The translations under genes and the position numbers were made by a program. Positions 9,532 through 64,000 of a stretch of 64,000 bases of DNA are shown one piece after another (the first letter of the stretch is position 1; every line of letters starts with the position of its first letter). Source of the stretch: Actinomycetes bacterium (GTDB taxonomy: Bacteria > Actinomycetota > Acidimicrobiia > Acidimicrobiales > RAAP-2); contig JAJYVT010000001.1 of assembly GCA_021791845.1 (NCBI GenBank), positions 62,001 to 126,000 on the forward strand. The letters are read 5' to 3'. Under the pieces are notes generated by a model, which was not told the origin of the DNA, ran no database searches, and saw only the letters and a program-made list of their open reading frames with translations.

Positions 9532-9540
9532 CGGCCGGCG

Positions 9541-47185: not shown

Positions 47186-48682
47186 TCAGCGCCCCGGCGC
47201 GCTGCCGCGGAGCAGCCTTCCGGGCGTGCGCGCCAGGATCCGCAGGTCGCTGCGGACGCTCCAGCTCGTGGCGTACTGCACGTCGAGGCGGACCAGCTCC
47301 TCGAACGTCAGCTCGTGCTGGCCGCACACCTGCCACATGCCGGTCATGCCCGGCCGGACGTCGAAGCGGCGGGCCACCGGACCGCTCAGCGCCTCGCACT
47401 CCTCGGGGATGAACGGCCGGGGGCCGACGAGCGACATCTCGCCCCGGAGCACGTTGATCAGCTGGGGGAGCTCGTCGATCCCGGTGCGACGGAGGACGGA
47501 CCCGAGGCGGGTGATCCGTGCGGGGTCCGGAATGGTGTCGAAGGGCGTCCAGGCCCGGTCACCGCGCGTACCGGGACCGGCGTAGGCACCCGGCGGCACG
47601 GGCACGGCGTGCCCCCGGGGGTGCGGGTTGGGCGCCGGGCGCATGGTGCGGAACTTGAGGATCCGGAACCGGCGCTGGCCCCGGCCCACCCGCACCTGGC
47701 GGAAGAGGACGGGAGCGCCCGACTCGACCCGCACCGCCAGCGCCACCACCAGGAGGAGCGGGCTCAGGAGGGCGAGGCTGGCAGCGGACACCGCCACGTC
47801 CATCGCCCGCTTGGCTGCCCGTTGCGCCCACCCCGGAGGGGTGCCGAGGCTGAGCAGGGGGAGGCCTGTGACGTCGGTCAGCTGGCTGTCCCACCCGGTG
47901 ACCTCGAAGAAGCGGACGACCACGTCCACCTCGGCCACGGAGCGCACCGCGTGGACGACCTCGGCCGTGCGGGCCGGGTGGCGCTCGGAGAAGGCGATGA
48001 CGACGCGGTCGACCCCCAGCGTCTCGCACAGCCGGGGGAGCTCGTCGAAGCGCCCCAGCACCCGCTCGCCGCCACCCGGGCGGTCGTCCACGATGCCGAG
48101 CACGTCCACGAGGGGCGAGCGGGCCAGGCGGGCGGTGAGGTAGCCGGCGATGAAGCCCGAGCCCACCACGACCACTCTCGAGACGTTGGCCCGGTTGCGG
48201 GCGGCCAGCACGACCGCCAGCTCGCGCGCCAGCGGCACGGTGAGCGCCGCCACGCCCAGGGCCACGCCGACCGGCAGCGGTCGGACCGCGGCGTCGAGCG
48301 CCGGCACAGACCGCAGGGCGAACAGGAGGAGGCCGGCGACGCACAGCGAGGAGACGATGAAGCCCAGGTCGTCGGCGACCCGGGGGGCGATCCGGCTCCG
48401 GCGCGCCCCGCGGGCTGCCAGCACGGCGACGAGGGAGGCGACGACGGCCCCCAGCAGCACCAGGCGGTCGCCCACGCCGGCGGACGCCTGCGTCCACGAG
48501 AGGAAGCTCATGCCCGCCGCAGCCGCGACGGCACCGCCCACGCCGTCGGCGACCAGCATGAGGCGTCGCACGTGGTTGCGGCGGGGCGCGATCCTGCGGA
48601 TGGGCGGCGCCTCGGCCAGCCCCGCCGGCGCCGTTCCCGACTGGACCACGGACGCCGCCTGGGGCGAGGAGACGGCCGTCAT
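47186..48682 (-). CDS. Polyprenyl-phosphate sugar-1-phosphate transferase (WbaP/WcaJ type)
   Basis: 498 residues. Four transmembrane segments (about 45-155), a CoA-binding-like Rossmann region (SRVVVVGSGFIAGYLTARL, LGIVDDRPGGGERVLG), then the bacterial sugar transferase domain: KRAMDVAVSAASLALLSPLL, LFRQVRVGRGQRRFRILKFR, RRTGIDELPQLINVL, GEMSLVGPRPFIPEE and DVRPGMTGMWQV. These carry the catalytic DE dyad and basic residues of monotopic phosphoglycosyl transferases. It attaches the first sugar-1-phosphate to undecaprenyl phosphate. ATGA overlap with the upstream small gene. Confidence 0.93.
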   Translation of the reverse strand: MTAVSSPQAASVVQSGTAPAGLAEAPPIRRIAPRRNHVRRLMLVADGVGGAVAAAAGMSFLSWTQASAGVGDRLVLLGAVVASLVAVLAARGARRSRIAPRVADDLGFIVSSLCVAGLLLFALRSVPALDAAVRPLPVGVALGVAALTVPLARELAVVLAARNRANVSRVVVVGSGFIAGYLTARLARSPLVDVLGIVDDRPGGGERVLGRFDELPRLCETLGVDRVVIAFSERHPARTAEVVHAVRSVAEVDVVVRFFEVTGWDSQLTDVTGLPLLSLGTPPGWAQRAAKRAMDVAVSAASLALLSPLLLVVALAVRVESGAPVLFRQVRVGRGQRRFRILKFRTMRPAPNPHPRGHAVPVPPGAYAGPGTRGDRAWTPFDTIPDPARITRLGSVLRRTGIDELPQLINVLRGEMSLVGPRPFIPEECEALSGPVARRFDVRPGMTGMWQVCGQHELTFEELVRLDVQYATSWSVRSDLRILARTPGRLLRGSAPGR

Positions 48683-49111: not shown

Positions 49112-50866
49112 GTGCAAACGGACCCTTTCATGGACGAGACGCTGCGCCTGGCCCGCGACCTGTGCCTGGGCGTCGGCGCCTTCGTCGTGACCGCGGCAGG
49201 GGACGTCTTCTCCAGCACGTCGGACGTGATGCAGCCCGAGGACGCCGATCGACGCATCGCCGACCTGGCCCGGGCATGCCTCACGCACCCGTCGGCCGGG
49301 GGACGCGAGCTCTTCTGGAGCGCCGAGGCGACCGACGAGGGGAGCGACGTCCACGCCGAGTGGTCCCTGGCGTGCGTCGTTTCCCCGATGTGGTGGGGCG
49401 ACACCTGGCTCGGGCTCCTCGGCGTCGTGGACGTGTGGCTGCCCGAGCTCGACGCGGAGCAGCGTTTCGGGCTGCAGGCCCTGGCAGAGGGGCTGGCGCG
49501 CCGCCTCCAGTCGCCTCCCGCCCAGGCTGCGGCCACCGGGGCGCCGGCACCGGTCTCGGGGGCGCCCGCGGGCGGTGGCGGGCCGAGCGACCCCTTCCTG
49601 GGCGAGGTGCTGGACAACCTGCCCGACGGGCTGATCGTGACCCGCGCCGACGGCACGATGGTGCTCGTCAACCAGACCTTCGCCGCGATGACCGGCCTGG
49701 CCATGGACGAGGTCCTGGGTGAGGACGTCCTGGGCGTGCTGCGGGGGAGCGGCGCGGCGGGGACCGGGGGCGCACCGGGCGCCGATCTCACAACCGAGCT
49801 CGCCGCGCTCCTCGGCTCGCCCGAGCCCGGCCGGAGCACCGTGCTCGCGTCCGTGGGCGGCGAGCCCCGTTCGCTGGTGGCCAGCGGGCGTCGCCTCCAG
49901 AGCCGGTTCGCCGGCGACTGCTTCATCACGCTGCTCCGCCCGCCGTCTGCCGGCGAGCCGGGCGCGGCGCAGTCCTCGCTCCCCTCGTCGGGGATCCAGG
50001 CCCTGCTGGACCACGTCGAGGACGGGATCGTGTGCTGCGACGCGGCCGGGGTCGTGGTGCTCGCCAACCGGGCCGCTCGCCGGCTCCAGGGCCTCGACGA
50101 TTCCGAGCTGCAGCCCGGGCAGCCGTTCCCGTCGGCCACGAAGCTCCAGACGCTCGAGGGGCACCCGCTCAGCGTGGACGCCCATCCCCTGATCCGGTCG
50201 ATGCTCGACGACGTCCCGGTGACCACAGATCTCCTGCTGCCCCGGGAGGACGCGGTCGTCTACGTGTCGGTGTCCTCCCACCCGCTGCGGGTGGACGGAG
50301 GCGACGGGGCCATCGCCGTGCTCCGCGACGTGACGGCGGAGCGGGAGCGCCAGGCCCATCTCGCCCACTACGCCCTGCACGACCCCCTCACGGGCGTGGC
50401 GAACCGGTACCTGCTGAACGACGCCCTCCAGCGCATGCTCGACGGCCTCTCGCGTCGCGGCGGCGTCGTCTCGCTGATCTACCTCGATCTCGACCGCTTC
50501 AAGGAGATCAACGACGTGCACGGGCACGAGATGGGCGACGAGGTCCTCCGGGCGGTGTCGCAGCGGCTCCAGCGCGCCGTGCGCGGCGAGGACGTCGTCG
50601 GACGCCTCGGCGGCGACGAGTTCGCCGTGGCCCACATCACCGCCGACCGGCTCTCCGACGGGGACGCCGTGACGGCACGGCTGCGGAAGGTGCTCACCAC
50701 GCCCTACCGGTTCGGCGACGTGGTGCTCGACGTGGGCGCGTCCATCGGCTGGGTGAGCACGTCGTCGGGCGGGGACACCCCCGAGAACCTGATCGCCAAG
50801 GCCGACCGGGCGATGTACGAGCACAAGAACCAACGCCGCAGCGAGCGGCCGGAGTCGGCGGCATGA
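49112..50866 (+). CDS. PAS-PAS-GGDEF diguanylate cyclase of the polysaccharide locus
   Basis: 584 residues from GTG 49112, chosen because of the -10 element 7 nt upstream; an upstream GTG at 49082 and an ATG at 49130 are alternatives. An N-terminal GAF-like domain (about 5-135) has WWGDTWLGLLGVVDVW. The first PAS is at about 155-270 (VLDNLPDGLIVTRADG), the second at about 285-415 (LLDHVEDGIVCCDAAG). The GGDEF domain starts HDPLTGVANRYLL with an intact active site (GGDEF 500-504) and an intact I-site RGED (491-494). Soluble; it should make c-di-GMP in response to an unknown signal, with feedback. ATGA overlap with the Wzz-like gene ties it to polysaccharide export. Confidence 0.9.
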   Translation: MQTDPFMDETLRLARDLCLGVGAFVVTAAGDVFSSTSDVMQPEDADRRIADLARACLTHPSAGGRELFWSAEATDEGSDVHAEWSLACVVSPMWWGDTWLGLLGVVDVWLPELDAEQRFGLQALAEGLARRLQSPPAQAAATGAPAPVSGAPAGGGGPSDPFLGEVLDNLPDGLIVTRADGTMVLVNQTFAAMTGLAMDEVLGEDVLGVLRGSGAAGTGGAPGADLTTELAALLGSPEPGRSTVLASVGGEPRSLVASGRRLQSRFAGDCFITLLRPPSAGEPGAAQSSLPSSGIQALLDHVEDGIVCCDAAGVVVLANRAARRLQGLDDSELQPGQPFPSATKLQTLEGHPLSVDAHPLIRSMLDDVPVTTDLLLPREDAVVYVSVSSHPLRVDGGDGAIAVLRDVTAERERQAHLAHYALHDPLTGVANRYLLNDALQRMLDGLSRRGGVVSLIYLDLDRFKEINDVHGHEMGDEVLRAVSQRLQRAVRGEDVVGRLGGDEFAVAHITADRLSDGDAVTARLRKVLTTPYRFGDVVLDVGASIGWVSTSSGGDTPENLIAKADRAMYEHKNQRRSERPESAA

Positions 50867-52689: not shown

Positions 52690-54394
52690 CCGGGCGCTCG
52701 TCGTCCGGCGACGCACCCCGGCCCCGGGCTCCGGCACGGCCGGCTCGCCCGGCTCGCCCGGCTCGGCCGGCTCGGCCGGCGCGGCCGGCTCGCCCGGCGC
52801 GGCCGGCGCCGTAGCGTCGGCGCCCCGAAGGCGCCGCTCCGGGAGCCCGCACAGGCCGGGCAGGCCGGACGGGCCGGGCAGGCCGGACGTGGACGCCCGG
52901 GGGACCGGCGAGCTCGGCGTCGGGTGGCTGGCCAGGCGGACCCGTCCGCTGGTCCTGGCGGCGGCGTGCACGTTCGTCGCCCTCGGCGTGGGCTACCTCC
53001 TCCCCACGAAGCCCAAGGACGCCGTGGCGCTGCTCGGCGGGGCGGTCGTCGTCGCCGCCGTGCTGTTGCGACCGGTGATCGGCGCCGTCCTCCTGGTGGC
53101 CCTCGTCCCGGCCACCTCGGGGTTCGCCCCGGGGTTCCCGGTGTCGCACGTCCGGCTCTCGGAGGCGATCATCGGCCTGGTCGGCGTGACGCTGATCGCC
53201 TCCGTCCGGCGGACCGAGGCCGTCCCGTGGGACACCCTCGACTGGGCGCTCCTCGGCTACGGCCTCACCTGGGCCGCCTTCGCCGTGCTGGACCAGCACC
53301 AGCTGCACGAGCACCTCACACTCGGCGCGTGGGGATCGGCGCTGGGCCAGCTGCAGTTCTTCCTCATCTACCGCGGCGTGCGGGTGGCGGTGCGCTCGGA
53401 GCGGGAGCGGCGGCTGTCGCTGACGGCGCTCATGGTCGCCAGCCTCCCCGTCGCCGCGCTCGCCGTGCTCCAGGAGATGCGGGTCCATGCGGTCCAGTCC
53501 TTCATCAACACGCTGACGGGGGGCCTCACAGGTGGCTCCGCTCCCACAGCCGCCGGGTCGGTGCGGGTCACCGGCCCCTTCGTCAACTGGGCGGCACTGG
53601 CCGGTTACCTGCTGCCGATCCTGCTCGTCGTGGTGGCGCTCGCCCTGTCGAACTCCGAGCTGCGACGGGCGCGCTGGTTCGCCGCCGTCGGTGTGGCCGG
53701 TGGGCTGGCCATGGTGCTCACCCTCGAGCAGTCGGCGATCATCTGCGGGCTGTTCGGCGTGTTCGTCCTGCTCCGGAGGTACGACCGCAACGGGCGCATG
53801 ACCCGCATCTTCCTGGCCGCGCTGGCGGTCCTCCTGGTGGCGGCCAGCCCCGTGCTTATCGGGCGCTTCGCCCACGAGCTGGCGGGGACGCCGGGCAGCG
53901 GCCGGATCCCCTGGGTCCCCCAGACGCTCAGCTTCCGCTGGGGCGTCTGGACGAGGCAGTACTTCCCGGCCATCGGCGCGCGTCCGTTGCGCGGGTACGG
54001 GATGGTCTACCCCACCTCGATCAGCTGGCCCTTCCCGGAGTCCCAGTACATCTCCTTCCTGATGGAGGGCGGGGTGCTGATGGTGGCGGCCTTCGCCGTC
54101 CTGACGTGGGCGATGCTGCGCCGGACCTGGGCTGCCGCCCACGCCGCCGACCCGCTCGACCGGGCGCTCGGCTTCGCCCTCACGATCGGCGTGGTCTCCC
54201 TGGTCGTCATGGCCTTCACGTGGCCGTTCCTGAGCAACGGCGGCATGCCGCAGGTGCTCTGGGCGCTCATGGGCCTGCTCCTGCCCGTGCACCGCCCGGC
54301 GGGAACGGATGCCGGCGCCCTGTGGCGCGCCTCCCCGGCGGCGGTCCCCGACCGCGTGGAGCCGCCGACGCTGGCGATTCGGAGCGCGCCGTGA
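52679..54394 (+). CDS. O-antigen polymerase/ligase-like membrane protein (Wzy/WaaL type)
   Basis: 571 residues from a GTG 11 nt inside the previous gene. A disordered N-terminus (1-80) holds Gly-Ser/Ala-Pro repeats encoded by a 9-bp tandem repeat. Eleven or so transmembrane helices follow, with a large extracytoplasmic loop (about 395-450) containing GSGRIPWVPQTLSFRWGVW and GYGMVYPTSISWPF, placed as in Wzy/WaaL proteins. TGPFVNWAALAGYLLP precedes the loop. It likely polymerises lipid-linked repeat units outside the membrane. GTGA overlap with the glycosidase-like gene. Confidence 0.82.
   Translation: MRADRALVVRRRTPAPGSGTAGSPGSPGSAGSAGAAGSPGAAGAVASAPRRRRSGSPHRPGRPDGPGRPDVDARGTGELGVGWLARRTRPLVLAAACTFVALGVGYLLPTKPKDAVALLGGAVVVAAVLLRPVIGAVLLVALVPATSGFAPGFPVSHVRLSEAIIGLVGVTLIASVRRTEAVPWDTLDWALLGYGLTWAAFAVLDQHQLHEHLTLGAWGSALGQLQFFLIYRGVRVAVRSERERRLSLTALMVASLPVAALAVLQEMRVHAVQSFINTLTGGLTGGSAPTAAGSVRVTGPFVNWAALAGYLLPILLVVVALALSNSELRRARWFAAVGVAGGLAMVLTLEQSAIICGLFGVFVLLRRYDRNGRMTRIFLAALAVLLVAASPVLIGRFAHELAGTPGSGRIPWVPQTLSFRWGVWTRQYFPAIGARPLRGYGMVYPTSISWPFPESQYISFLMEGGVLMVAAFAVLTWAMLRRTWAAAHAADPLDRALGFALTIGVVSLVVMAFTWPFLSNGGMPQVLWALMGLLLPVHRPAGTDAGALWRASPAAVPDRVEPPTLAIRSAP
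52742..52804 (+). repeat. Seven tandem 9-bp units in the polymerase gene
   Basis: Units GGCTCGCCC, GGCTCGGCC and GGCGCGGCC encode Gly-(Ser/Ala)-(Pro/Ala) triplets in the cytoplasmic N-terminus of the Wzy-like protein. Confidence 0.85.
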
Positions 54395-55494
54395 GCGGCG
54401 ACCGGCTGCCGCGGCTCCGCCCGCGCACGCGGCGACGTCTCACCGCCGGGATCCTGGCGGCCGTGGCCGTCGTGGGGCTCGCCGTCGCGCTGATCGGGTC
54501 GTCGTCCTCGCCGACGGTGGCGGGCAACGACGGCAGCGGCCACCCGGCCGCCACGACGAGGGGCGGCCCGACAAAGGCGCACGACCCGGGGCCGCCCGCG
54601 TCGACATCGAAGCGCACCGCGGCCACCGACGCGCAGGCGCCGCCGCTCGGCGTCTACACCGGCCCGGGGAACTCGGCGGCGGCGGAGGCGGTCGCCGCCC
54701 AGCTCGGCAACCGGGTCCCCTATGCGCTGGACTACCTCCCTCGGACCACGTGGACAGCGCTCACCGACCCGAGCTGGCTGGCCCAGCGGTGGCAGGGCTC
54801 GCCCTTCCACCTGGTCATCGGCGTGCCGATGCTGCCCAGCTCGGGCGCGACGCTCGCCCAGGGGGCGACGGGGGCGTTCGACGCCCAGTTCCAGACCCTG
54901 GCCGAGCGGCTCGTCCAAGACGGTCTCGGTGGCGCGATCCTCATGCTCGGCTACCAACCCGACGACGAGGACACCCCGTGGTACGTGGGGTCGCGGGCCG
55001 CGGCGCTCGACTACGTCCGCTACTGGCGCGCCATCCGGGCGACGATGCTCGCCGTGCCGGGCGCGGCCTTCCTCTTCGAGTGGGACGCCGGGGACGCGGG
55101 CACGTCGCCCGAGAGCCCCGCCGCCATGTACCCGGGGAGCGCCTTCGTCGACATCGTCGCCACCGACGCCTTCGACTTCGTGGGGGCCGACCCCGCCACA
55201 CACGGCCACTGGGCCACCGTGCTCGACCAGCGGTACGGCCCGGCATGGATGTCGGCGTTCGCCGCGTCCCACCACAAGCCCATGGCCATCGCCATCTGGG
55301 GCGAGGTCCCGGCGTCCACAGGCGGCGCCGGCGACCAGCCGGCGTACGTCACCCAGCTCCTGCGGTGGGCGGCCGCCAAGCGGGTGGTCATGTGCGTGCT
55401 CTGGGACTACCAGAACATGACGCTGACCGGCGGCGCGTTCCCGGCGGCTTCGGCCGCGCTCAGCCGTGCCGTCGCCGGTGCGGCGGGCGCGTAG
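54391..55494 (+). CDS. Secreted TIM-barrel glycosidase-like protein (GH26-like, atypical active site)
   Basis: 367 residues. An N-terminal signal anchor (about 16-36), a Thr/Pro/Lys linker, and a barrel domain from about 85: LGVYTGPGNSAAAEAVAAQL, FHLVIGVPMLPSSGATLAQG, ILMLGYQPDDEDTPWY, AFLFEWDAGDAGTSPES, FVDIVATDAFDFVGAD, PMAIAIWGEVPAST and CVLWDYQNM. The layout matches beta-mannanase-like GH26 proteins found in exopolysaccharide loci. The acid/base glutamate expected at the end of strand 4 (as in xGxExN) reads GYQPDDED, and the nucleophile position reads IWGEV. It may trim or bind the polymer outside the cell. Last gene of the first forward operon. Confidence 0.7.
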   Translation: MSGDRLPRLRPRTRRRLTAGILAAVAVVGLAVALIGSSSSPTVAGNDGSGHPAATTRGGPTKAHDPGPPASTSKRTAATDAQAPPLGVYTGPGNSAAAEAVAAQLGNRVPYALDYLPRTTWTALTDPSWLAQRWQGSPFHLVIGVPMLPSSGATLAQGATGAFDAQFQTLAERLVQDGLGGAILMLGYQPDDEDTPWYVGSRAAALDYVRYWRAIRATMLAVPGAAFLFEWDAGDAGTSPESPAAMYPGSAFVDIVATDAFDFVGADPATHGHWATVLDQRYGPAWMSAFAASHHKPMAIAIWGEVPASTGGAGDQPAYVTQLLRWAAAKRVVMCVLWDYQNMTLTGGAFPAASAALSRAVAGAAGA

Positions 55495-55672: not shown

Positions 55673-57001
55673 ATGGAACAAGCACTGAGCGGGGGGACGA
55701 CGAATCTCCTCCGGATGGCCCGGAGCGGGTGCCAGAGCGCCTCGTCGTTCGTCGCCCTCGCGCTCACCGACGACTCGTTCGCCACTGCGGTCTACCCGGC
55801 CACGCCCGAGCTTGGATCCCTGGACATCGCCACCGTGGACCACCTGATGCGCCAGCTCTGGCACGACCCGGGGCTCGGTCGGGGCAAGGCGCTGGTCCGG
55901 ACGATCCCCGTCGGGAACGACCGCATCGCGGTCGCTGCCGTCCCGCTGGCCGTCAACGAGCAGGGACAGCCGTCGGGTCTGCTCGGCGTCGCCGACCCGA
56001 GCGGCAAGTCCTTCGGCGTGCCCGACCTCGAGCTGCTCTCGCGGATCGCCCAGCGGCTGACATCGTACGTGCAGGCCCGCCGGACCGTCCGGTCCCAGAT
56101 TTCCCCTTCGGCCGCTCCGGGGGACCGGGGCCCTGCAGCTCCCGGCCAGCCCGCCGGCCAGGGGCCCGGCGAGGCGCCCGGCGACGCCTTCGGCCGGCCG
56201 GCGCCCCAACCGGAGGCCGCCCAGGTCGTGGAGGGCCCCCCGACGGTCCCGGGCCCGGTGTGGTGGGGCGAGCACGGCAGCGGGACCCTTCCCCTGCCCC
56301 CGTTCCCACCGCCGGCCGGCACCGCCGGGGTCGGCCGCACGGTCGCCGCGCCCGGAGCCGAGCGCCCGCAGGCGACCGAGCGCCCGCAGGTGACCGAGCG
56401 CCCGCAGGTGACCGAGCGCCCGCAGGCGACCGAGCGCCCGCAGGCGACCGAGCGCCCGCAGGCGACCGAGCGCCCGCAGGCGACCGAGCGCCCGCGCACC
56501 GGTGCCGCGGAGGGTGCCGCTCCGCATGCTGCGGCAACGCCGTCTTCGCGGGACGAGTCCCTCCGGTCCTTCCTCGCCGGTGACGGGGAGATCGACGGGC
56601 TCGTCTCGCTCGGCACGCTCCTGGGCCGCGCCGGCCGGCTGCTCGGCGCCGGGACGGCGGCAAGCGGATCCCTTACGGTGGTCGTGCTCGGCGTGGAGGG
56701 CGTGCCCGAGCCGACGGCCGAGGAGGTGGGACGCGTCGCCCGGTCGATCCGGGCGGAGCTGCGCTTCGACGACCCGCTCGCCCGCATCGGGGAGCTCTCC
56801 TTCGTGGCCGTGGTGCCGTTGGCACCGGGCGCCGCGACCGCCGCCCAAGTCGAAGCCCACCTGTCGGCGCGGGTCCGCAGCGCCGTCATCCAGCATCCCG
56901 GCGCGCGGGTTCACGCCGCACACGTGGTGGCACCGCTCGACGGCAGGCAAGACGCAGACGAGCTGCTCCGCGCTGCGGTGGTGAAGCTCCGTGCGCGCTG
57001 A
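55673..57001 (+). CDS. GAF protein with hexapeptide repeats and a degenerate GGDEF domain
   Basis: 442 residues. An N-terminal GAF-like domain (about 1-140) has GLLGVADPSGKSFGVPDLEL. A Pro-rich linker contains seven ERPQ(A/V)T repeats (about 230-271). The C-terminal domain (about 298-442) is GGDEF-like in its order of elements, with IDGLVSLGTLLGRAGRLLGA and LRFDDPLARIGELSFVAVVP. The active-site motif has become GELSF (373-377), but the RxxD I-site is intact as RFDD (364-367) with the canonical five-residue spacing. It is expected to be catalytically dead and may bind c-di-GMP. ATG start in a weak ribosome context; 17 bp before the flippase gene, whose C-terminus carries a related domain. Confidence 0.82.
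   Translation: MEQALSGGTTNLLRMARSGCQSASSFVALALTDDSFATAVYPATPELGSLDIATVDHLMRQLWHDPGLGRGKALVRTIPVGNDRIAVAAVPLAVNEQGQPSGLLGVADPSGKSFGVPDLELLSRIAQRLTSYVQARRTVRSQISPSAAPGDRGPAAPGQPAGQGPGEAPGDAFGRPAPQPEAAQVVEGPPTVPGPVWWGEHGSGTLPLPPFPPPAGTAGVGRTVAAPGAERPQATERPQVTERPQVTERPQATERPQATERPQATERPQATERPRTGAAEGAAPHAAATPSSRDESLRSFLAGDGEIDGLVSLGTLLGRAGRLLGAGTAASGSLTVVVLGVEGVPEPTAEEVGRVARSIRAELRFDDPLARIGELSFVAVVPLAPGAATAAQVEAHLSARVRSAVIQHPGARVHAAHVVAPLDGRQDADELLRAAVVKLRAR
56360..56485 (+). repeat. Seven tandem 18-bp units encoding ERPQ(A/V)T
   Basis: GAGCGCCCGCAGGCGACC repeated seven times, two units having GTG for GCG, then a partial eighth unit. In frame, so each gain or loss changes the linker by six residues. 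Confidence 0.95.
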
Positions 57002-57018: not shown

Positions 57019-59361
57019 ATGCCGCGCCGGACGACCGTCGCACCGAGCACGGACTCGCCGGACTCGCCGGACTCGCGCGCGACCTCGGACGGAGGGTCGC
57101 TGCGCGAGACGGCGATCCGCAGCGGCGCGTACCTCGTCGGCCGGGAGGCCGTGGGCATCGGCGTCAGGCTCCTGGGCCTGGTGCTCGTCATGCGGCGGAT
57201 CGGTCCGGCCGACTTCGGCATCTACGGGGCGGCCGCGGCCTATGTGATCCTGGCCTCCACGCTGGCGCAGATGGGAGCGGAGGTGTTCCTCATCCGGCAG
57301 CCGGGACCGCTGCCGCGGCGCCGCTACGACGAGGTGTTCACCACGCTGCTGGTCACGTCGGCGGTGGTGGTGGTGGTGGGGCTGGCGCTGTCCTTCGCCG
57401 TCGCGCCCTGGCTGCGCCCGGTGGGCGTCGTGGTCCCGGCGCGGGTCATGGTGCTGAGCGTGCCGCTCAACGTCCTGTGGGCGCCGATGCAGGCGTGCAT
57501 CGAGCGGCAGTTCGCGTACCGGCGGCTCGGCTTTCTGGAGGTCGGCAGCGACGTGGTCCTGTACGGGACGGCGGTGCCGCTGGCGTTCCTCGGAGCGGGG
57601 CCGTGGTCGCTGATCGCCGGCTTCTTCGCCTGGCAAGCGTGGCGGTTGGTCGGCAGCATGGCGCTGTCGGGGCTCTGGCCGCGGCTGGCCTGGTCGTCCG
57701 GGACGGCTCGGGAGCTGATCGCCCATGGGCGGACCTACGCCCTCACGACATGGATCGCCGGCGCCAGGGCGGCGATCCTGACGTTGATCGTCGGGACCTA
57801 TGCCGGGGCGACCGGGGTCGGCCTGGTCAACTTCGCCCAGCGCATGGTCACAACCATGAACTTCACCGACCGGGGCGTGCACCGCATCGGCATGGTCGCG
57901 ATCTCGAAGGCCAGCCGGGAACGGCCCGGGCGGCTGTCGGTGGCCATGGAGGAGGGGACGCTGCTCCTACAGGTGGTGGCGGCGGTTCCGTTCATCGCCT
58001 TCGGGCTGGCCGCTCCGTGGATGGTCCCCGACGTCTTCGGGCGCGACTGGCTGCCGGCGATGCCGGTCTACGTGCTGCTGGCGCTGTGGGCGATGCTGCG
58101 CGTTCCCGTCACCGTCCAGCGGACGCTCCTCTACGCCCACGGACGCAACATCCCGCCGGCGATCACCAGCACGATCGAGCTGGTGCTGGTGAGCACGGTC
58201 GCGCTGGTGGCGGTTCGTCAGCTGGGCATCGTGGGATTCGGGATCGCCAGCGTCGTGGCGGTGAGCTCGAGCGTCTACACCCACCACGCCGCACGCCGGC
58301 TGGTGCAGCTCCGCTACCGGCGCCTGGTGCTGCCGATGGTCGCCCTGGTCCCGCCGGTGTTCGCCGCCGTGGTCCCCGTACCCTGGGCGTTCCTCCTGCT
58401 CCTCGTACCGGTGTCGGTGCTCGCCCTTCCCTCGATGCGGGCCGAGCTGCGCCACCTGATCTCGACGGCCCGAGCCACGGTCGGCCGGCCCCGAGCCGCG
58501 GGTGCCGTGCCATCGACGTCGCAACCGGCGCCGGCCGTGGTCACCGCGCTGCCCGTTCGCACCCCGCCCCGGGTTGCCACCCTGGGCGCGCCTGGCACCG
58601 GGGGTCGTGAGATGGCGATGAACGGCTCCTCTCGAACCACGCCGAACGTGTCGCTCTTCCCACCGTTCCAGGCATGGCGCCTCCAAGCGGGGTCGGTGGT
58701 GGACCCCACCAACCCTCGGATCGCCGATCGGGCGTCGCTCGACGCGCACGGGCTCACCTTCCGCCCGACCCCGCCGGCAGCGGGTGACGAGCGGCGCACC
58801 GCGGGGCACGAGGACGGACCCGGGCGGTCGGACGCGCCCATGCACGTGGACGGGACAGCCTCGGGGCTGGAGCCCCGGGTCCCCGACATGGTCCAGGCGC
58901 TGCTGGCCGAGACCGACCCGGTGACGGGGCTTCCCTCGCCGGTGGTGCTGCTGGCCCGGCTCGGCCGGCTGCTCGGCGCCGTGCGGGAGACCGGGTGGAC
59001 GCTCGCCGTCGTGGCGGTGGAGCTCCGACGGGGCGAGGGCGCCCGGCCGGGTGCGGCCCCCGAGGAGATGCTGGCCGACGTGGCCGAGGGACTCCGGGCC
59101 GTGCTCCGGTTCGACGACCTGGTGGCCCGGGTGGGGGCGGCGACCTTTGTCGCAGCCGTCACCCTGGTGGGACGGGGGCTGGACGGCATCCACGTCGCCG
59201 CCCACGTCGAGGGATCGGTTCGCGCCGCGCTGGCGGCATCGGGCCACGGAGCGCTGTCCGAGCGCTGGACCGTGCGGTCCGCCCACGAGGTGGTGCCGTT
59301 GCCGTGCGACCGCGACGCCGACGAGCTGGTGCGCCGGGTGCTGGAGGCGCTCGATGGCTGA
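57019..59361 (+). CDS. Polysaccharide flippase fused to a degenerate GGDEF domain
   Basis: 780 residues. Residues about 25-475 form a Wzx/MurJ-like multidrug-oligosaccharide-polysaccharide flippase with twelve to fourteen transmembrane helices, starting SGAYLVGREAVGIGVRLLGL, with GPADFGIYGAAAAYVILAST. A cytoplasmic linker follows (about 480-630). The C-terminal domain starts TDPVTGLPSPVVLLARLGRL (from 631), matching the entry of GGDEF domains. The active site GGDEF is replaced by GAATF (706-710), yet RFDD (697-700) keeps the I-site at the right spacing. It should move lipid-linked repeat units outward and may be gated by c-di-GMP; the fusion is the main reason to think so. Overlaps acpS by 8 nt. 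Confidence 0.85.
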   Translation: MPRRTTVAPSTDSPDSPDSRATSDGGSLRETAIRSGAYLVGREAVGIGVRLLGLVLVMRRIGPADFGIYGAAAAYVILASTLAQMGAEVFLIRQPGPLPRRRYDEVFTTLLVTSAVVVVVGLALSFAVAPWLRPVGVVVPARVMVLSVPLNVLWAPMQACIERQFAYRRLGFLEVGSDVVLYGTAVPLAFLGAGPWSLIAGFFAWQAWRLVGSMALSGLWPRLAWSSGTARELIAHGRTYALTTWIAGARAAILTLIVGTYAGATGVGLVNFAQRMVTTMNFTDRGVHRIGMVAISKASRERPGRLSVAMEEGTLLLQVVAAVPFIAFGLAAPWMVPDVFGRDWLPAMPVYVLLALWAMLRVPVTVQRTLLYAHGRNIPPAITSTIELVLVSTVALVAVRQLGIVGFGIASVVAVSSSVYTHHAARRLVQLRYRRLVLPMVALVPPVFAAVVPVPWAFLLLLVPVSVLALPSMRAELRHLISTARATVGRPRAAGAVPSTSQPAPAVVTALPVRTPPRVATLGAPGTGGREMAMNGSSRTTPNVSLFPPFQAWRLQAGSVVDPTNPRIADRASLDAHGLTFRPTPPAAGDERRTAGHEDGPGRSDAPMHVDGTASGLEPRVPDMVQALLAETDPVTGLPSPVVLLARLGRLLGAVRETGWTLAVVAVELRRGEGARPGAAPEEMLADVAEGLRAVLRFDDLVARVGAATFVAAVTLVGRGLDGIHVAAHVEGSVRAALAASGHGALSERWTVRSAHEVVPLPCDRDADELVRRVLEALDG

Positions 59362-59860
59362 TCGTGGTCCGGCACAGGCCGTGGATGCCACCGCCACCGT
59401 GGATGCCATCGCCGCCGTGGGCGCGCCCGTGAGGGTCGGCGTGGACGTCACCGCCGTGGCGGAGGTGGCCGACGCCGTCGCCATCTTCGGCGACCGCTAC
59501 CTGCACCGGCTCTTCACCCCCCACGAGGTCGAGAGCTGTGGGGGAGCGGCCGCCGCCGCCTCCCTGGCCGCGCGCTTTGCCGCCAAGGAGGCCGTCGTCA
59601 AGGTGCTCGAGCCCTCGGGTGCCCGCCCGCCGTGGCGGGACATCGAGGTGGTCCGGCGCCCCGACGGCGCCTGCCGCATCCGGCTGCACCGGACGGCGGC
59701 ATCGCTGGCGGCCGAGCACGGCGTGGGCCCCATCAGCGTGAGCCTCAGCCACGAGGCCGGGCTCGCCGTGGCCGTCGTGGCCGCGGCGTGCGAGGGCCCG
59801 GCCGACGGCCCGCGACAACGTTCAACCGAGCAATCCAACACCGGAGGAGCAGACCGATGA
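59354..59860 (+). CDS. Holo-ACP synthase-type phosphopantetheinyl transferase
   Basis: 168 residues. An Ala/Val-rich N-terminal extension, then VRVGVDVTAVAEVADAVAIF with the Mg-binding Asp, YLHRLFTPHEVESC and SLAARFAAKEAVVKVLEPSG with the catalytic Glu. SVSLSHEAGLAVAVVA ends the domain. It transfers 4'-phosphopantetheine from CoA to the Ser of a carrier protein. The adjacent carrier-protein gene overlaps by 4 nt, so this is probably its dedicated activator rather than the fatty-acid AcpS of the cell. Confidence 0.9.
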   Translation: MADRGPAQAVDATATVDAIAAVGAPVRVGVDVTAVAEVADAVAIFGDRYLHRLFTPHEVESCGGAAAAASLAARFAAKEAVVKVLEPSGARPPWRDIEVVRRPDGACRIRLHRTAASLAAEHGVGPISVSLSHEAGLAVAVVAAACEGPADGPRQRSTEQSNTGGADR

Positions 59861-60126
59861 CGACGACCGACGAGAGCACCCGACGCATTCGCGAGGTGCT
59901 GGCCGACCACGGCCGGCTCCCGGTGGACGTGGGCCAGCTGTCCGACGACGACGACCTGTTCCAGGCGGGAATGACGTCACACGCCAGCGTGAACGTCATG
60001 CTCGCCCTGGAGGACGCCTTCGACGTGGAGTTCCCCGAGGCCATGCTGCGCAAGAGCACCTTCGCCTCGATCGGCGCGCTGCGCCGAGCCCTCGCCGAGC
60101 TCGAGACCATGGAGGTGCCGGCATGA
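59857..60126 (+). CDS. Acyl/aminoacyl carrier protein
   Basis: 89 residues, ATG with GGAGGAG upstream. Four-helix carrier fold: STRRIREVLADHGRLPVDVG, DDDLFQAGMTSHASVNVMLA and LEDAFDVEFPEAMLRKSTFA. The phosphopantetheine Ser is residue 41, in GMTSHASV instead of the usual GxDSL. Carrier proteins with this context are the partners of amino acid:carrier-protein ligases such as the one encoded at 61328. Overlaps both neighbours by 4 nt. Confidence 0.92.
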   Translation: MTTTDESTRRIREVLADHGRLPVDVGQLSDDDDLFQAGMTSHASVNVMLALEDAFDVEFPEAMLRKSTFASIGALRRALAELETMEVPA

Positions 60127-61331
60127 CCGTGTCCTTGACCCAGCCCACCACCGGCCCGGTGCCGTCGGGGCTGCTGCGCTCGGTGGAGCGGCTCGGCCGC
60201 GACGTCGCCGCCGCCCATGCCGACGACGTCGACCGCTCGGCGCGGTTCCCCGCCGAGACCTTCGACGCGCTGAAGGAGGCAGGGGTGCTCGGCGCCCTCG
60301 TGCCGCGAGCGCTCGGAGGCGCGGGGCTGACCCTCGCCGAGGCGTGCGCCGGCGTGCGCGCCCTGGGACGCCACTGCGCCTCGAGCGCCATGGTGCTCGC
60401 CATGCACCATCTCCAGGTGGCATGCCTGGTCCGCCACGGCCGGTCCGAGGCCCTCCGCCAGCTCCTGGCCGACGTGGCCGACCGCCAGCTCCTGCTCGCG
60501 TCGGCAACGACCGAGGCGGGCATCGGCGGGCGGCTGCGGGAGAGCAGCTGCGCCGTGCACGCCGACGGAGAGCGCTTCGAGCTGGAGAAGCAGGCCCCGG
60601 TCATCTCCTATGGCGCCCACGCCGACGCGGTGCTGGTCACGGCCCGGCGGACCCCGGACAGCCCGCCCGGCGACCAGGTGCTGGTCGCCTGCGTCAAGCC
60701 CGGGGTCTCGCTGGAGCAGGTGGGCGAGTGGGACACGCTCGGGCTGCGGGGCACCTGCAGCCCCGGCTTCGTCCTGCGGGCTGCCGGCCCGCTGTCGATG
60801 ATCCTCGACGACCCGTTCGCCGACGTCGCGGCCGAGACGATGCTGCCCTACTCCCACATCCTCTGGAGCCACGTCTGGCTCGGCATCGCCGACGCCGCCA
60901 TGTCCAAGGCGGGCGCGCTCGTGCGCAAGAAGGCGCGCCAGGACCCGGGCACGGTGCCGCCGGGCGCCCGCCGCCTGGCCGAGCTCGACGTCGTCTTCCA
61001 CCAGCTCGAGAGCTTGGCGACGGCGACGCTCGCCCGTTACGACGAGGCCGCCGGCGGCCAGCGGGCCGAGAGCGTCGGCGACGCGGTCGCCCTCAATGCC
61101 CTCAAGGTGGGCGCCTCCCGGCTCGTCGTGGAGGTGGTGACCGGGGCGCTCGGGATCTGCGGCATGGACGGCTACCGCGAGGGCACGCCCTTCAGCCTCG
61201 GCCGCCAGCTCCGGGATGCCCACAGCGCCGCGCTCATGGTCAGCAACGACCGCATCCTGGGTGACAACGCCCAGCTCCTGCTGCTGTCGAGGGACCCCGG
61301 CGGCACCGATCGCACGGAAGGGAAGGTGTGA
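60123..61331 (+). CDS. Acyl-CoA dehydrogenase-family flavoenzyme
   Basis: 402 residues. N-terminal helical domain with FPAETFDALKEAGVLGALVP and ALGGAGLTLAEACAGVRALG; the middle beta domain has LLLASATTEAGIGGRLRES. C-terminal helices contain GALGICGMDGYREGTPFSLG, with a Glu where acyl-CoA dehydrogenases have their catalytic base, followed by RQLRDAHSAALMVSNDRIL. In this context the substrate is probably an aminoacyl thioester on the neighbouring carrier protein, as known for prolyl-carrier dehydrogenases, but that is inference. Overlaps on both sides. Confidence 0.87.
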   Translation: MTVSLTQPTTGPVPSGLLRSVERLGRDVAAAHADDVDRSARFPAETFDALKEAGVLGALVPRALGGAGLTLAEACAGVRALGRHCASSAMVLAMHHLQVACLVRHGRSEALRQLLADVADRQLLLASATTEAGIGGRLRESSCAVHADGERFELEKQAPVISYGAHADAVLVTARRTPDSPPGDQVLVACVKPGVSLEQVGEWDTLGLRGTCSPGFVLRAAGPLSMILDDPFADVAAETMLPYSHILWSHVWLGIADAAMSKAGALVRKKARQDPGTVPPGARRLAELDVVFHQLESLATATLARYDEAAGGQRAESVGDAVALNALKVGASRLVVEVVTGALGICGMDGYREGTPFSLGRQLRDAHSAALMVSNDRILGDNAQLLLLSRDPGGTDRTEGKV

Positions 61332-62320
61332 CCACCATGGTCCAGACCCACACACACCGCTCCGGAGGCGCCGCCGACATCAGCGCCGCCGACATCAGCC
61401 CCTCCGACGGGGCATCCTCCCTCGTCCGGCGCATGCTGGATGCGGGGCTGCTCGCCCCGACGGGCGTCCTCGGCCTCTACGGCCGGTCCGGGGCGTACCA
61501 GGACGTCGCCGACGGCATCGGCATGATGGTGCGCCGCTGGGGTGCGTCCCTCGGGGCACGCCGCTTGCACCTGCCGCCGGTCCTGGCGCGGGCGACCTTC
61601 GCCCACACGAACTACCTCGAGTCCTTCCCCGACCTCATGGGGTCGGTGCACGTCTTCACCGGCGGGGACGCCGAGCACAAGCAGCTGCTGCGCCGGGTCG
61701 AGTCCGGCGGGGACTGGCCCGCGCTCCTCGAGCCGGCGGAGGTGGTGCTGGCCTCGGCCGCGTGCCACGGCGTGTACCCGCTGTGCACCGGGACGCTGCC
61801 AGAGGAGGGCCTCACCTTCGACGTGCAGAGCTCCTGCTTCCGGCACGAGCCCAGCGCCCAGGCGGCCCGGATGCAGTCCTTCGTGATGCACGAGATCGTG
61901 CACGTGGGGACGGCGCAGAGCGCCTGGGACCACCGAGAGGAAGGTCTGGCCCGTGGCATCCGGATGCTGGAGGCCCTGGGGCTGTCGATGCAGGCCGTGC
62001 CGGCGTCGGACCCGTTCTTCGGCCGGGTCGGCTCCGTGCTCGCCGCCGGGCAGCTGGAAGAGCAGCTGAAGATCGAGGGGGTCACCCCGATCCCCGGCAC
62101 CGACGGCGTGACGGCGATCATGTCGGCCAACTGCCACCGGGACCACTTCGGCGTGCCGTTCTCCATCCGGACCGCCGGCGGCGACGTGGCGCACAGCGCC
62201 TGCGTGGCCTTCGGCGTCGACCGCATCGTGGTCGCGCTGCTGGCCGTGCACGGCTTCGAGCCGGAGCGCTGGCCGTTCTACGTGCGGGCCCAGCTCGGCC
62301 TGGCCGGGACCGAAGGCTGA
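61328..62320 (+). CDS. Amino acid:[carrier protein] ligase (class II synthetase-like)
   Basis: 330 residues from a GTG overlapping the dehydrogenase. It is a truncated seryl-tRNA-synthetase-like catalytic core without a tRNA-binding arm. Motif 2 is SSCFRHEPSAQAARMQSFVM; motif 3 is ACVAFGVDRIVVALLAVHG. Candidate zinc ligands are Cys in SAACHGVYPLC and SANCHRDHFG plus the Glu of FRHE, as in the Bradyrhizobium enzyme family (Bll0957 type). Those enzymes adenylate glycine or alanine and load it on a phosphopantetheine carrier protein. The carrier, its activator and the DUF1839 protein are all adjacent. Confidence 0.9.
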   Translation: MTTMVQTHTHRSGGAADISAADISPSDGASSLVRRMLDAGLLAPTGVLGLYGRSGAYQDVADGIGMMVRRWGASLGARRLHLPPVLARATFAHTNYLESFPDLMGSVHVFTGGDAEHKQLLRRVESGGDWPALLEPAEVVLASAACHGVYPLCTGTLPEEGLTFDVQSSCFRHEPSAQAARMQSFVMHEIVHVGTAQSAWDHREEGLARGIRMLEALGLSMQAVPASDPFFGRVGSVLAAGQLEEQLKIEGVTPIPGTDGVTAIMSANCHRDHFGVPFSIRTAGGDVAHSACVAFGVDRIVVALLAVHGFEPERWPFYVRAQLGLAGTEG

Positions 62321-62332
62321 CGGGGCCCGCCC

Positions 62333-63400
62333 ATGCGAGCCGACGTCCTGTGCATCGACCCGGCCGGGTACCGGTCCCACCCCCTCCACGGGGGGGACCG
62401 CGTCTGGACCGAGACGAACTGCGCCGCCGACCTGTGGATCGAGACCCTGCACGCCCTCGGCTACGACCCCGTGGCCGGGCTCGGGTTCGCCCTCGCCTCG
62501 GACTTCGACGGCGACCAGTGGCGCATGTTCACCTATCCGGCCGGCACGCTCCGGTCGCTCTACGGTCTCGAGGCCGACGAGCTGAACGTCTGGCGGCCCC
62601 TGCGCGAGCACGTCGTCGAGCAGCTCGCCTTCGGGAACCTGGTCGCCTTCGACGCCGACGCATGGTGGCTCCCGGACACCGCCGGGCTCACCTACCGCAG
62701 CGCGCACCAGAAGACCACCATCCTGGCGGCGCGCATCGACACCGAACGCTGCTGCCTGGGCTACATCCACAACGCCGGTTACTACGAGCTCGGCGGGGAG
62801 GACTTCGAGGCCCTGCTCCCGGCTCGCCCGGCGCCGGACCAGCTGCCGCCCTACACGCTGCAGGTGCGTCTGGCGGGGCGCCGGTCGCCGGGACCGGCCG
62901 ACCGGGAACGGGCGGTCCGGCTGGCCCGCGCCCACCTCGACCGCCGACCGCTCCACAACCCGGTGGCACGGATGGCGGCGCGGGTCCACCACGACCTCGA
63001 GCGCCTCCGGGCCGACGGCCTCGACGCCTTCCATCGCTGGGCGTTCGGGACCCTCCGCCAGTGCGGCGCCAACGCCGAGCTGGCCGCCTCCTTCGCCACG
63101 TGGCTGGAGGCGGCCGGGGTGGCCGGGGCGTCGGACGGCGCGGCCCCGCTGGAGGCGGTGGCGATGGGCATGAAGTCGGCGGAGATGGTCATGGCGCGGG
63201 CGGTCCGCGGACGCGCCGTGGACGTGGACGCCTTGTTCGGGCCGCTGGCGGCCAGCTGGGCGGCCGGGATCGACGGGGTGGCCGGCGCCGTGTCGGCGTC
63301 GTGCGCCGGCTCGCCGGCGACAGCGCCCGGAACCGAGGTCGAGGACGCGCCGGCAGGGGCACGGCCGTGGCGGGCCGAGCCCTCGATGGCGAGCCGGTGA
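62333..63400 (+). CDS. DUF1839 protein, probable aminoacyl transferase of the carrier-protein module
   Basis: 355 residues, cytoplasmic. It starts VLCIDPAGYRSHPLHGGDRV with WTETNCAADLWIETLHALGY, whose Cys may be a nucleophile. FGNLVAFDADAWWLPDTAGL and YRSAHQKTTILAARID carry conserved Asp and His, giving a papain-like Cys-His-Asp arrangement. CLGYIHNAGYYELGGEDFEA follows. DUF1839 genes are usually found beside amino acid:carrier-protein ligases, so a role in moving the aminoacyl group from the carrier to an acceptor is likely, but unproven. It overlaps the GH2 gene by 4 nt. Confidence 0.85.
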   Translation: MRADVLCIDPAGYRSHPLHGGDRVWTETNCAADLWIETLHALGYDPVAGLGFALASDFDGDQWRMFTYPAGTLRSLYGLEADELNVWRPLREHVVEQLAFGNLVAFDADAWWLPDTAGLTYRSAHQKTTILAARIDTERCCLGYIHNAGYYELGGEDFEALLPARPAPDQLPPYTLQVRLAGRRSPGPADRERAVRLARAHLDRRPLHNPVARMAARVHHDLERLRADGLDAFHRWAFGTLRQCGANAELAASFATWLEAAGVAGASDGAAPLEAVAMGMKSAEMVMARAVRGRAVDVDALFGPLAASWAAGIDGVAGAVSASCAGSPATAPGTEVEDAPAGARPWRAEPSMASR

Positions 63401-64000
63401 GGGGCGACGCGGTGCTGCTCGAGACCGGATGGGAGTGCGCCGAGAGCGCGTCGGGGACGGCGGCGGGCCCCGACGCGCTCTCGGCGCACCCCGGCTTGGA
63501 CTGGTTTCCGGCCCAGGTCCCGGGGACGGTGGCCTCGGCCCTGCGCGCCGCCGGGCGTCCGGTCGTCCGCGAGCTGCTGGATGAGCGGGACTGGTGGTTC
63601 CGCTGTCGCTTCGCCGGCCCGGGCGGCCCGCACCGGGTCCACTTCGGCGGCATCGCCACGGTGGCGGACGTCTGGCTCAACGGCTCCCACGTGCTGGCGT
63701 CGGCATCCATGCACCGGGCGCAGTCGGTGGACGTCGACGACCTGTCCGGGGAGTGCGAGCTCGTGGTCCGGTGCTCGGCGCTGGCCCGCGTCCTCGCCCG
63801 GCGGCGGCCCCGCCCCCGCTGGAAGACCTACCTGGTCGAGAGCCAGCAGCTGCGGTGGGTCCGCACGAGCCTGCTCGGCCGCGTTCCGGGCTGGGCCGAG
63901 GTCCCGCCCGCGGTGGGCCTGTGGCGCCCGGTCGAGCTCCAGCCGCTCGACGGCTCGACCGTGGCCGGCGTGCGGCTCCGGGCCCGGTGCGGTCCGGACG
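63397..64000 (+). CDS. Beta-mannosidase-like GH2 protein (3' part missing)
   Basis: The frame from a GTG overlapping the DUF1839 stop runs 201 codons and off the right edge. It has the N-terminal sugar-binding domain of GH2 enzymes: LETGWECAESASG, DWFPAQVPGTVASALRAAGR, LLDERDWWFRCRFAGPG and VHFGGIATVADVWLNGSHV, followed by WVRTSLLGRVPGWAEVPPAV and GLWRPVELQPLDG. No signal peptide is visible. The catalytic domain is outside the window, so activity cannot be judged. In its context it may act on mannose-containing parts of the exopolysaccharide or bind sugar for the aminoacyl transfer. Confidence 0.82.
   Translation, partial: MRGDAVLLETGWECAESASGTAAGPDALSAHPGLDWFPAQVPGTVASALRAAGRPVVRELLDERDWWFRCRFAGPGGPHRVHFGGIATVADVWLNGSHVLASASMHRAQSVDVDDLSGECELVVRCSALARVLARRRPRPRWKTYLVESQQLRWVRTSLLGRVPGWAEVPPAVGLWRPVELQPLDGSTVAGVRLRARCGPD

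Follow-up and report, generated by a model that had tools for sequence, protein, structure and literature searches.

We found that a 64,000-nt stretch of the genome of an Actinomycetes bacterium (GCA_021791845.1, contig JAJYVT010000001.1, positions 62,001–126,000 of the forward strand; hereafter "the window") carries, as one operon behind a flippase gene, the genes for an AcpS-type transferase, a carrier protein (CP), an acyl-CoA-dehydrogenase-fold flavoprotein, an amino acid:CP ligase, a DUF1839 protein and a GH2 protein. The main new result comes from structure modeling, in which the DUF1839 protein is predicted to share the fold of CcbD, an amide synthase of lincosamide synthesis. We consider it about an even bet that the enzymes of the cassette activate an amino acid, tether it to the CP and link it through an amide bond to an amino sugar, probably for an exported surface polysaccharide.

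Organization of the Cassette and Its Locus

All six cassette genes lie on the + strand, with open frames and zero internal stops. The preceding gene (57019..59361, +) encodes a MOP-family flippase of the Wzx type that is extended by a long additional region at its C terminus (Polysacc_synt_3, 113.6 bits, residues 59–349); its stop at 59361 overlaps the ATG of AcpS at 59354 by 8 nt, with a GTG at 59399 as an alternative AcpS start. The AcpS-type 4′-phosphopantetheinyl transferase (59354..59860, +; PF01648, 56.5 bits; TIGR00556, 78 bits against a cut-off of 45) is followed by the aminoacyl CP (59857..60126, +; PF00550, 34.6 bits; PRK07081, 105 bits against a cut-off of 72), the flavoprotein (60123..61331, +; PF02771/PF00441, Acyl-CoA_dh_N/_1) and the class II, seryl-tRNA-synthetase-like amino acid:CP ligase (61328..62320, +; NF005479 (PRK07080), 376.8 bits against a cut-off of 357). 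The DUF1839 protein, a predicted papain-like aminoacyl-CP:aminosugar amide synthase (62333..63400, +; PF08893, 330 bits), and the N-terminal part of a beta-mannosidase-like GH2 protein (63397..64000, +, the gene continuing to 65985 along the contig; GH2 N-domain, 61 bits) complete the set. Overlaps of 4 nt join AcpS to CP, CP to flavoprotein, flavoprotein to ligase (GTG start) and DUF1839 to GH2, and the ligase and DUF1839 genes are separated by 12 nt. The preliminary description had reported just such a six-gene module, joined by 4-nt overlaps or a short gap and overlapping the flippase by 8 nt, and this is confirmed. A seventh gene, for a 727-aa twin alpha/beta hydrolase (65982–68165 when the window is numbered onward into the contig), shares a 4-nt overlap with the GH2 gene and is followed by a methyltransferase gene; the hydrolase gene is part of the module and lies outside the window.

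Of the genes expected of a Wzx/Wzy polysaccharide locus, the flippase and an initiating sugar-phosphate transferase (47186..48682, −; Bac_transf, 193.8 bits) are present. A multi-span membrane protein (52889..54394, +) is putatively Wzy-like by eye and has homologs upstream of the flippase in loci L011 and L037; it matched zero Pfam families at E 0.01. A GH26-like identity for 54463–55491 was set aside (single weak match, E 0.012). No aminosugar-making gene was identified within the window.

DUF1839 as a Predicted CcbD-Like Amide Synthase

The DUF1839 model (pLDDT 91.3) aligned with CcbD (PDB 7yn2) over 289 residues at Z 19.3 and an rmsd of 3.5 (target 349 residues), and Foldseek gave a probability of 1.00 for the CcbD-type fold. 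Matches to CcbD, AziU3/U2 and CtaG spanned 264–289 residues at Z 15.4–19.3, the next rows scoring at most 7.4, and the model contains the whole-length papain-like fold with C-terminal helices that typifies CcbD/LmbD. A profile of 33 DUF1839 sequences matched zero CcbD chains at E up to 1; with zero detectable sequence similarity, DUF1839 is thus CcbD-like in fold and not a member of the CcbD family. Residue conservation was counted here and below in length-filtered sets (84/84 DUF1839 proteins, 57/68 flavoproteins, 75/84 GH2 proteins, 69/70 ligases and 47/48 CPs). Cys30, the first residue of helix 30–41 in the model, and His146 are both kept in 84/84 sequences and His125 in 83/84; Thr/Ser129 and Asp157 are also conserved. 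The DUF1839 triad is given as C-(T/S)-H in the relevant passage of PMC10318531, and that of CcbD as Cys-His-Glu in the corresponding passage of PMC12945683, where a catalytic Cys serves to form an amide between a CP-bound amino acid and an aminosugar. The earlier suggestion that DUF1839 is the transferring enzyme is supported by the whole-length matches of the model to CcbD, AziU3/U2 and CtaG, and we predict that it is a CcbD-like amide synthase.

The resemblance to CcbD/LmbD (PDB 7yn2 and 9dkr), as those enzymes appear in passages of PMC12945683 and PMC4351081, covers the whole-length fold, the conserved Cys at a helix start, a partner CP encoded nearby and the pairing of an amino acid with an aminosugar. 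The cassette differs in its loader, a class II synthetase-like ligase where an adenylation domain is described there, and in the triad as printed. BtrH of butirosin synthesis, a papain-like acyltransferase with an ACP-linked acyl donor and an aminoglycoside acceptor, is likened to DUF1839 by its description in part of PMC10318531; it produced zero rows in our DUF1839 fold searches, so that comparison rests on print.

Predicted Loading of the Carrier Protein

Ser41 of the CP occurs in 47/47 aligned CPs and is the predicted attachment site, and in the close relative L011 AcpS and CP form a single fused protein. Cys143, Glu171 and Cys289 of the ligase are conserved in 95% or more of the 69 ligases compared; we take the three to be metal-ligand-like, with a metal role. 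The 327-aa ligase matched Bll0957 (PDB 3mey) with 235 bits, its residues 38–322 aligning with 47–332 of Bll0957, and corresponds to a catalytic core without tRNA-binding domain. The amino acid:[carrier protein] ligases, Bll0957 included, are attributed to Mocibob 2010 and 2013 in a passage of PMC9437257. The window ligase resembles the Bll0957 type in scoring above the NF005479 cut-off, and departs from that type as described in sharing an operon with a flippase.

The source genome encodes a second ligase and CP, inside another polysaccharide locus with heptose genes. The polysaccharide loci L009, L119 and L121 contain ligase and CP but neither flavoprotein nor DUF1839, the whole genome of L121 being devoid of DUF1839, which indicates that DUF1839 is neither obligate nor the sole route.

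Flavoprotein, Glycosidase, and Twin Hydrolase

The AlphaFold model of the flavoprotein (pLDDT 88) returned 50 rows at Z 38.7–41.1 in a fold search; dehydrogenases and monooxygenases are both among them, making a call between the two by fold comparison impossible. The protein has the fold (Z ∼40) and Pfam domains of an acyl-CoA dehydrogenase and lacks the catalytic Glu, as residue 373, at the canonical position (MCAD 376), is Ile/Val in 57/57 sequences and residue 244, at the alternative position (255), is Ser/Ala/Thr in 57/57. Because both known positions are otherwise occupied throughout, canonical dehydrogenation appears doubtful, and we predict that the flavoprotein modifies the aminoacyl group while it is bound to the CP. 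Of the earlier proposal that a dehydrogenase oxidizes the group on the carrier, the fold assignment stands and the acyl-CoA-dehydrogenase chemistry is in doubt. An analogy with azaserine and triacsin synthesis, which also pairs a CP with an acyl-CoA-dehydrogenase-like enzyme, was rejected because the loader named in the relevant part of PMC10445470 is an AMP-binding protein and not a ligase of the cassette type.

GH2 matched the beta-mannosidase 5n6u with 142 bits over 60–689 and keeps both catalytic Glu residues (Glu415 in 74/75, Glu496 in 75/75), and by this homology and the two residues it is beta-mannosidase-like. It occurs in 83/86 loci, and by eye it has no signal peptide and looks cytosolic. 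The halves of the twin hydrolase resemble exosortase-A-associated hydrolases 1 and 2 (TIGR03100/03101; 74.5 and 63.6 bits, below cut-offs). A link to exosortases, prompted by this likeness, was abandoned, the source genome having zero exosortase matches. In L118, GH2 adjoins a PIG-L de-N-acetylase that might supply the free amine, with same-cluster relatives in L014 and L039.

Distribution and Linkage to Glycan Genes

The order CP–flavoprotein–ligase–DUF1839–GH2 recurs in distant bacteria, across phyla, and the cassette is therefore not a chance assembly. In the 50 DUF1839 genomes searched for it, the ligase was found in 50/50, on the same contig within 20 kb in 48. We surveyed the best 80 of 530 loci found, a sample thereby skewed toward relatives of the query, and assigned genus groups from record titles. 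CP, flavoprotein, ligase, DUF1839 and GH2 were all found in 42/80 of these loci with in-sample models, a count in which absent CPs are not proven absent because our gene calling handles short genes and low-GC DNA only roughly. In rhizobia, EF-P/EpmA/lysine-aminomutase genes beside the cassette look like ordinary neighbors.

Within these best 80 of 530, a Bac_transf gene lay within 20 kb of the cassette in 15/80 genomes vs. 1.78 expected (eight short second hit fragments, 7 + 1 rows, none of them on a DUF1839 contig, were left out), representing 7/42 genus groups; 65/80, e.g., Agrobacterium and Azospirillum, had none in that range. Glycan-assembly genes occurred within ∼10 kb of 18/26 loci vs. 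0/26 random stretches of the same contigs, using models from which the tested loci were excluded and same-genus relatives kept. With in-sample models, 40/80 of the best loci and 25/42 genus groups had no recognized glycan-assembly gene within ∼10 kb. The glycan linkage is thus non-random but not universal. The preliminary description, which placed the module within an exopolysaccharide locus, holds for this genome and as an enrichment over chance, but not as a general rule; the finding it had named as contrary, a module mostly without polysaccharide genes, is partly borne out.

Alternative Explanations

The same chemistry might instead yield a small molecule, an aminoacyl-aminosugar akin to lincosamides or mycothiol that is either soluble or lipid-linked, with the polysaccharide neighborhood incidental or sharing a sugar donor, a reading that we consider possible, if somewhat unlikely. 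The many genomes without a nearby Bac_transf gene and the seemingly cytosolic GH2 argue for it. AziU3/U2 and CtaG, close folds of DUF1839, belong to small-molecule pathways. CcbD, the closest, is a small-molecule pathway enzyme in the relevant part of PMC12945683. Against this stand the significant enrichment beside polysaccharide genes in several lineages and the tight joining of flippase and cassette both in the window and in L011. That joining, the 8-nt overlap and enrichment in independent lineages likewise make it highly improbable that the cassette sits beside the flippase by chance in the source genome, even though in most genomes it lies elsewhere.

A Dlt/Alm-like ester aminoacylation of a polymer or lipid hydroxyl, the flavoprotein and GH2 acting separately, would accommodate L009, L119 and L121 and a weak match of the DltC model to the CP; we judge it distinctly unlikely, as zero DltB/MBOAT-type families appeared among the Pfam results for the window cassette and locus and the predicted DUF1839 fold suggests N-acyl transfer. 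For a role apart from sugars, in which the cassette makes a building block of a nonribosomal peptide or another secondary metabolite, one could cite a ligase relative between NRPS-like genes in G474 (L122) and distant relatives on Streptomyces plasmids, but NRPS/PKS genes were not recognized around the window cassette or among the flank families tested, and the near-constant GH2 suggests a glycoside, so that this role seems very unlikely.

Proposed Pathway and Relation to Known Systems

In the favored reading, amide-linked aminoacylation of an amino sugar, AcpS would arm the CP, and the ligase would activate a small amino acid, which homology suggests is glycine or alanine, for loading onto the CP, where the flavoprotein may alter the aminoacyl group by oxygenation or another oxidation. 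The group would then move to the DUF1839 cysteine and from there to the amino group of an amino sugar, the resulting amide corresponding to the bond that CcbD makes in lincosamide synthesis, while the GH2 protein and twin hydrolase may trim or proof-read a glycoside or thioester. As acceptor, the source genome would probably use one of the sugars in the lipid-linked repeat unit exported by the adjoining flippase.

This interpretation was already printed in 2010, so the idea in the preliminary description is supported but not new: a note added in proof to PMC2922099, on the genes surrounding the seryl-tRNA-synthetase paralog, predicted amide formation between an amino acid and a cell-surface aminosugar by this gene set. 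Its set likewise comprises a ligase, a CP, a redox enzyme predicted to modify the aminoacyl group, a conserved ORF (example Atu2574), a glycosidase and liposaccharide genes; the passages concerned call the redox enzyme Rossmann-fold and give no counts, structure or partner fold. To these our analysis adds counts with controls, the DUF1839–CcbD fold match, the missing catalytic Glu, the twin hydrolase and the forms without DUF1839. No experimental study of the cassette was found among the literature matches listed.

Alm places Gly on lipid A, and the ligase fold and transferase of Dlt and Alm are not known to be related to those of the cassette. As in Dlt, which puts D-Ala on teichoic acid, and in AlmEFG, both named as carrier-protein ligases in a passage of PMC12930378, the amino acid would be CP-activated and then put on a surface glycan. 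More speculatively, and with the odds in our view well against it, DUF1839 may represent a widespread, unrecognized CcbD-like amide synthase branch acting on surface glycans, and the cassette product an undescribed polysaccharide substituent, made by a flavoenzyme not acting as an acyl-CoA dehydrogenase, in which an amide joins an oxidized glycyl or alanyl group, such as N-hydroxyglycyl or glyoxylyl, to an amino sugar. Glycan aminoacylation would on this reading have lincosamide condensation as its small-molecule relative. The structure-backed DUF1839 function proposed here, together with genomes that join the cassette to a polysaccharide operon, makes direct assays feasible. The favored reading would add a third, unrelated bacterial route, beside Dlt and Alm, for placing amino acids onto surface glycans, and would tie that route to the enzyme type behind lincosamide antibiotics.

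Gene Content of the Cassette

The preliminary description reported a six-gene module for AcpS, a carrier protein, an acyl-CoA dehydrogenase (here called the flavoprotein), an amino acid:carrier-protein ligase, a DUF1839 protein and a GH2 protein; all six genes are indeed present, head-to-tail behind the flippase (57019–59361, + strand), and all are complete within the window except GH2, whose stop lies at 65985 when the contig is read beyond the window. Contig C155, from which the window is taken, belongs to a 3.55-Mb draft genome. A twin alpha/beta hydrolase of 727 aa (65982–68165, or 7983–10166 of locus L002) overlaps GH2 by 4 nt and is followed by a methyltransferase gene. One half of this protein is similar to exosortase-A-associated hydrolase 2 and the other to hydrolase 1 (74.5 and 63.6 bits, both below the cut-offs), and despite its presence no exosortase match was found anywhere in the source genome. 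In the nearest relative found (locus L011), whose DUF1839 protein is 72% identical, AcpS and the carrier protein are fused into a single protein immediately behind the flippase. Both of the nearest relatives have a FemAB-like GNAT gene (Acetyltransf_6) after the twin hydrolase (14288–15466 of L011, with a homologue in L037), possibly encoding another aminoacyl-transfer enzyme.

Just upstream of the cassette, 54463–55491 has a weak glycoside hydrolase family 26 match (E 0.012); a beta-mannan would fit GH2. The C-terminal part of 57019–59361 and the end of 55673–57001 look, by eye, like a degenerate GGDEF domain, with no Pfam match. The window also encodes a complete PAS-GGDEF protein (49130–50866), Williamsia cassettes have GGDEF and EAL genes on their flanks, and a link between the cassette and c-di-GMP is possible.

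Distribution and Conservation

DUF1839 is rare: searches of 296 class genomes and 396 phylum genomes each found it in 3. The ligase was detected in 10 of the 396 phylum genomes, in four of them over the cut-off. Scanning of genome contigs yielded 530 relatives, the best 80 of which were retained with up to 10 kb on each side and clustered by gene together with five plasmid loci and the window. Across these 86 loci, DUF1839 was present in 84, GH2 in 83, the ligase in 69, the flavoprotein in 68, the twin hydrolase in 55 and the carrier protein in 48. Carrier protein, flavoprotein, ligase, DUF1839 and GH2 occurred together in 42 of the best 80 loci, and DUF1839 and GH2 alone were within reach in 15 of these 80; many Rhodococcus have two cassette halves approximately 15 kb apart. 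All 50 genomes searched with both DUF1839 and ligase models contained the ligase, on the same contig and within 20 kb of DUF1839 in 48 and within 2 kb in 29. Annotated records of Azospirillum, Rhizobium and Mycetohabitans have the same gene order, which is also seen, without the hydrolase, in Caballeronia. EF-P, EpmA and lysine-aminomutase-like genes, or some of them, adjoin the cassette in several rhizobia (L007, L053, L055, L056, L071 and L072).

We take Atu2574 to be a DUF1839 protein, judging from gene order in Agrobacterium loci. In a Bradyrhizobium phaR mutant, bll0957 and the adjoining acd gene were each 3-fold up (PMC10888616), which supports co-regulation.

Association With Polysaccharide Loci

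Every initiating sugar-phosphate transferase (Bac_transf, PF02397) was mapped in the 80 genomes and its distance to DUF1839 compared with random placement. Fifteen of the 80 had one within 20 kb, vs. 1.78 expected, a count reached in 0 of 20,000 simulations. By genus group, 7 of 42 had any such neighbor (group-mean sum 6.05 vs. 0.96 expected). Because the linked genomes span Phreatobacter, Williamsia, a Hyphomicrobiales MAG, a Deltaproteobacteria MAG, one Rhodococcus and two actinobacterial MAGs, the association with glycan genes either originated or was retained in distinct lineages. A second test used five models built locally (GT2, GT4, Bac_transf, Wzy_C and Wzx) and gave at least one match in 18 of 26 cassette loci vs. 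0 of 26 control stretches, each 20 kb long and taken at random from the contigs that carry the loci, although 10 of the 26 pairs are from Rhodococcus and the pairs are thus not independent.

Models of this kind, here in-sample, found a glycan gene in 40 of the best 80 of 530 loci and 17 of 42 genus groups; the cassette is therefore drawn to glycan loci yet not dependent on one, Agrobacterium showing 0 of 8. The previous interpretation, with its proposed transfer of an amino-acid-derived group to a sugar, was right in direction, but its polysaccharide setting was over-general: adjoining glycan genes are enriched in other genomes, whereas half of the loci lack a glycan-model gene and Bac_transf is nearby in a minority.

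The class relatives G020 and G015 illustrate this range. In G020 (locus L118) the cassette is surrounded by GT4 genes, an O-acyltransferase, a WecG/TagA transferase, a Bac_transf-like gene and a PIG-L de-N-acetylase; in G015 (L117) none of these was recognized around the cassette. The PIG-L gene (L118, 10683–11408) sits between GH2 and the twin hydrolase, its cluster recurs in L014 and L039, and its product could be a source of free amine.

The Modeled DUF1839 Fold Resembles a Lincosamide Condensing Enzyme

An AlphaFold model of DUF1839 built from 31 sequences (mean pLDDT 91.3) gave as top Foldseek matches AziU3/U2 (E 4e-9), CtaG (2e-6) and the lincosamide condensing enzyme CcbD (1.9e-4), all with probability 1.00. 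VIA-align placed CcbD at Z 19.3 (rmsd 3.5, 289 residues), AziU3/U2 at 18.0 and CtaG at 16.7, with subsequent rows dropping to 7.4. CcbD is described as accepting carrier-bound proline on its own cysteine and delivering it to a thiooctose at the sugar's amino group, and as binding the carrier through arginines near its C-terminus (PMC12945683). In DUF1839, Cys30, Asp109, Lys127, His146 and Asp157 are kept in 84 of 84 sequences and Arg289 in 83; judged solely from the offset between the two ends of the alignment (326 to 358), Lys281, Arg289 and Arg292 would lie at the CcbD carrier-binding arginines.

An earlier study assigned DUF1839 a papain-like fold and a C-(T/S)-H triad, and guessed at glycan processing from the genomic context (PMC10318531), and in 2015 LmbD/CcbD were described as without database relatives (PMC4351081). 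In the literature searched, DUF1839 is named in one paper, and no publication was found that links the two. The interpretation of the cassette itself already appeared as a prediction in a 2010 note added in proof (PMC2922099).

The Flavoprotein

By sequence and fold the flavoprotein sits equally among acyl-CoA dehydrogenases and monooxygenase relatives. In the alignment, all 57 flavoproteins have Ile or Val at residue 373, opposite the Glu of the dehydrogenase YEGT motif, and Ser, Ala or Thr at residue 244, opposite the alternative Glu position; His245 is kept in all 57. We take these two to be the catalytic positions of acyl-CoA dehydrogenases. The title of PDB entry 1egd (T255E, E376G) agrees with them. 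These substitutions are evidence that the enzyme is probably not a normal dehydrogenase, so that oxidation of the carrier-bound group by the dehydrogenase, as first suggested, is uncertain. The 2010 note guessed monooxygenation (PMC2922099).

A Smaller Form Without DUF1839

The source genome encodes another ligase (343 bits) on the 16-kb contig C116 (locus L119, C116:1–16053), which carries no flavoprotein, DUF1839 or GH2. This ligase lies in another polysaccharide locus, together with AcpS, a carrier protein, a twin hydrolase, Bac_transf, GT4s and a weak Wzx match, along with heptose-type genes (gmhB-like, gmhA-like, sugar-1-phosphate nucleotidyltransferase-like and a truncated hddA-like gene). 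By analogy only, these heptose-type genes recall the pathway to the lincosamide sugar, whose enzymes include the kinase LmbP, the phosphatase LmbK and LmbN, an isomerase that also has a carrier domain (PMC12945683, PMC4351081). Similar DUF1839-free sets occur in polysaccharide loci of Tsukamurella and of genome G730, in which the search of 396 phylum genomes found no DUF1839 at all. Ligase, carrier protein and twin hydrolase therefore form a smaller core, of which the flavoprotein–DUF1839–GH2 part looks like an extension. Elsewhere, a ligase relative lies between giant NRPS-like genes (L122, contig C31 of G474), which suggests the same ligase put to a different use.

The analysis thus adds to the 2010 prediction a glycan link quantified with controls, evidence against a normal dehydrogenase, a second and smaller version of the system that the source genome also encodes, and a modeled whole-length structural match of the putative transfer enzyme to one known for the proposed type of reaction on an aminosugar.
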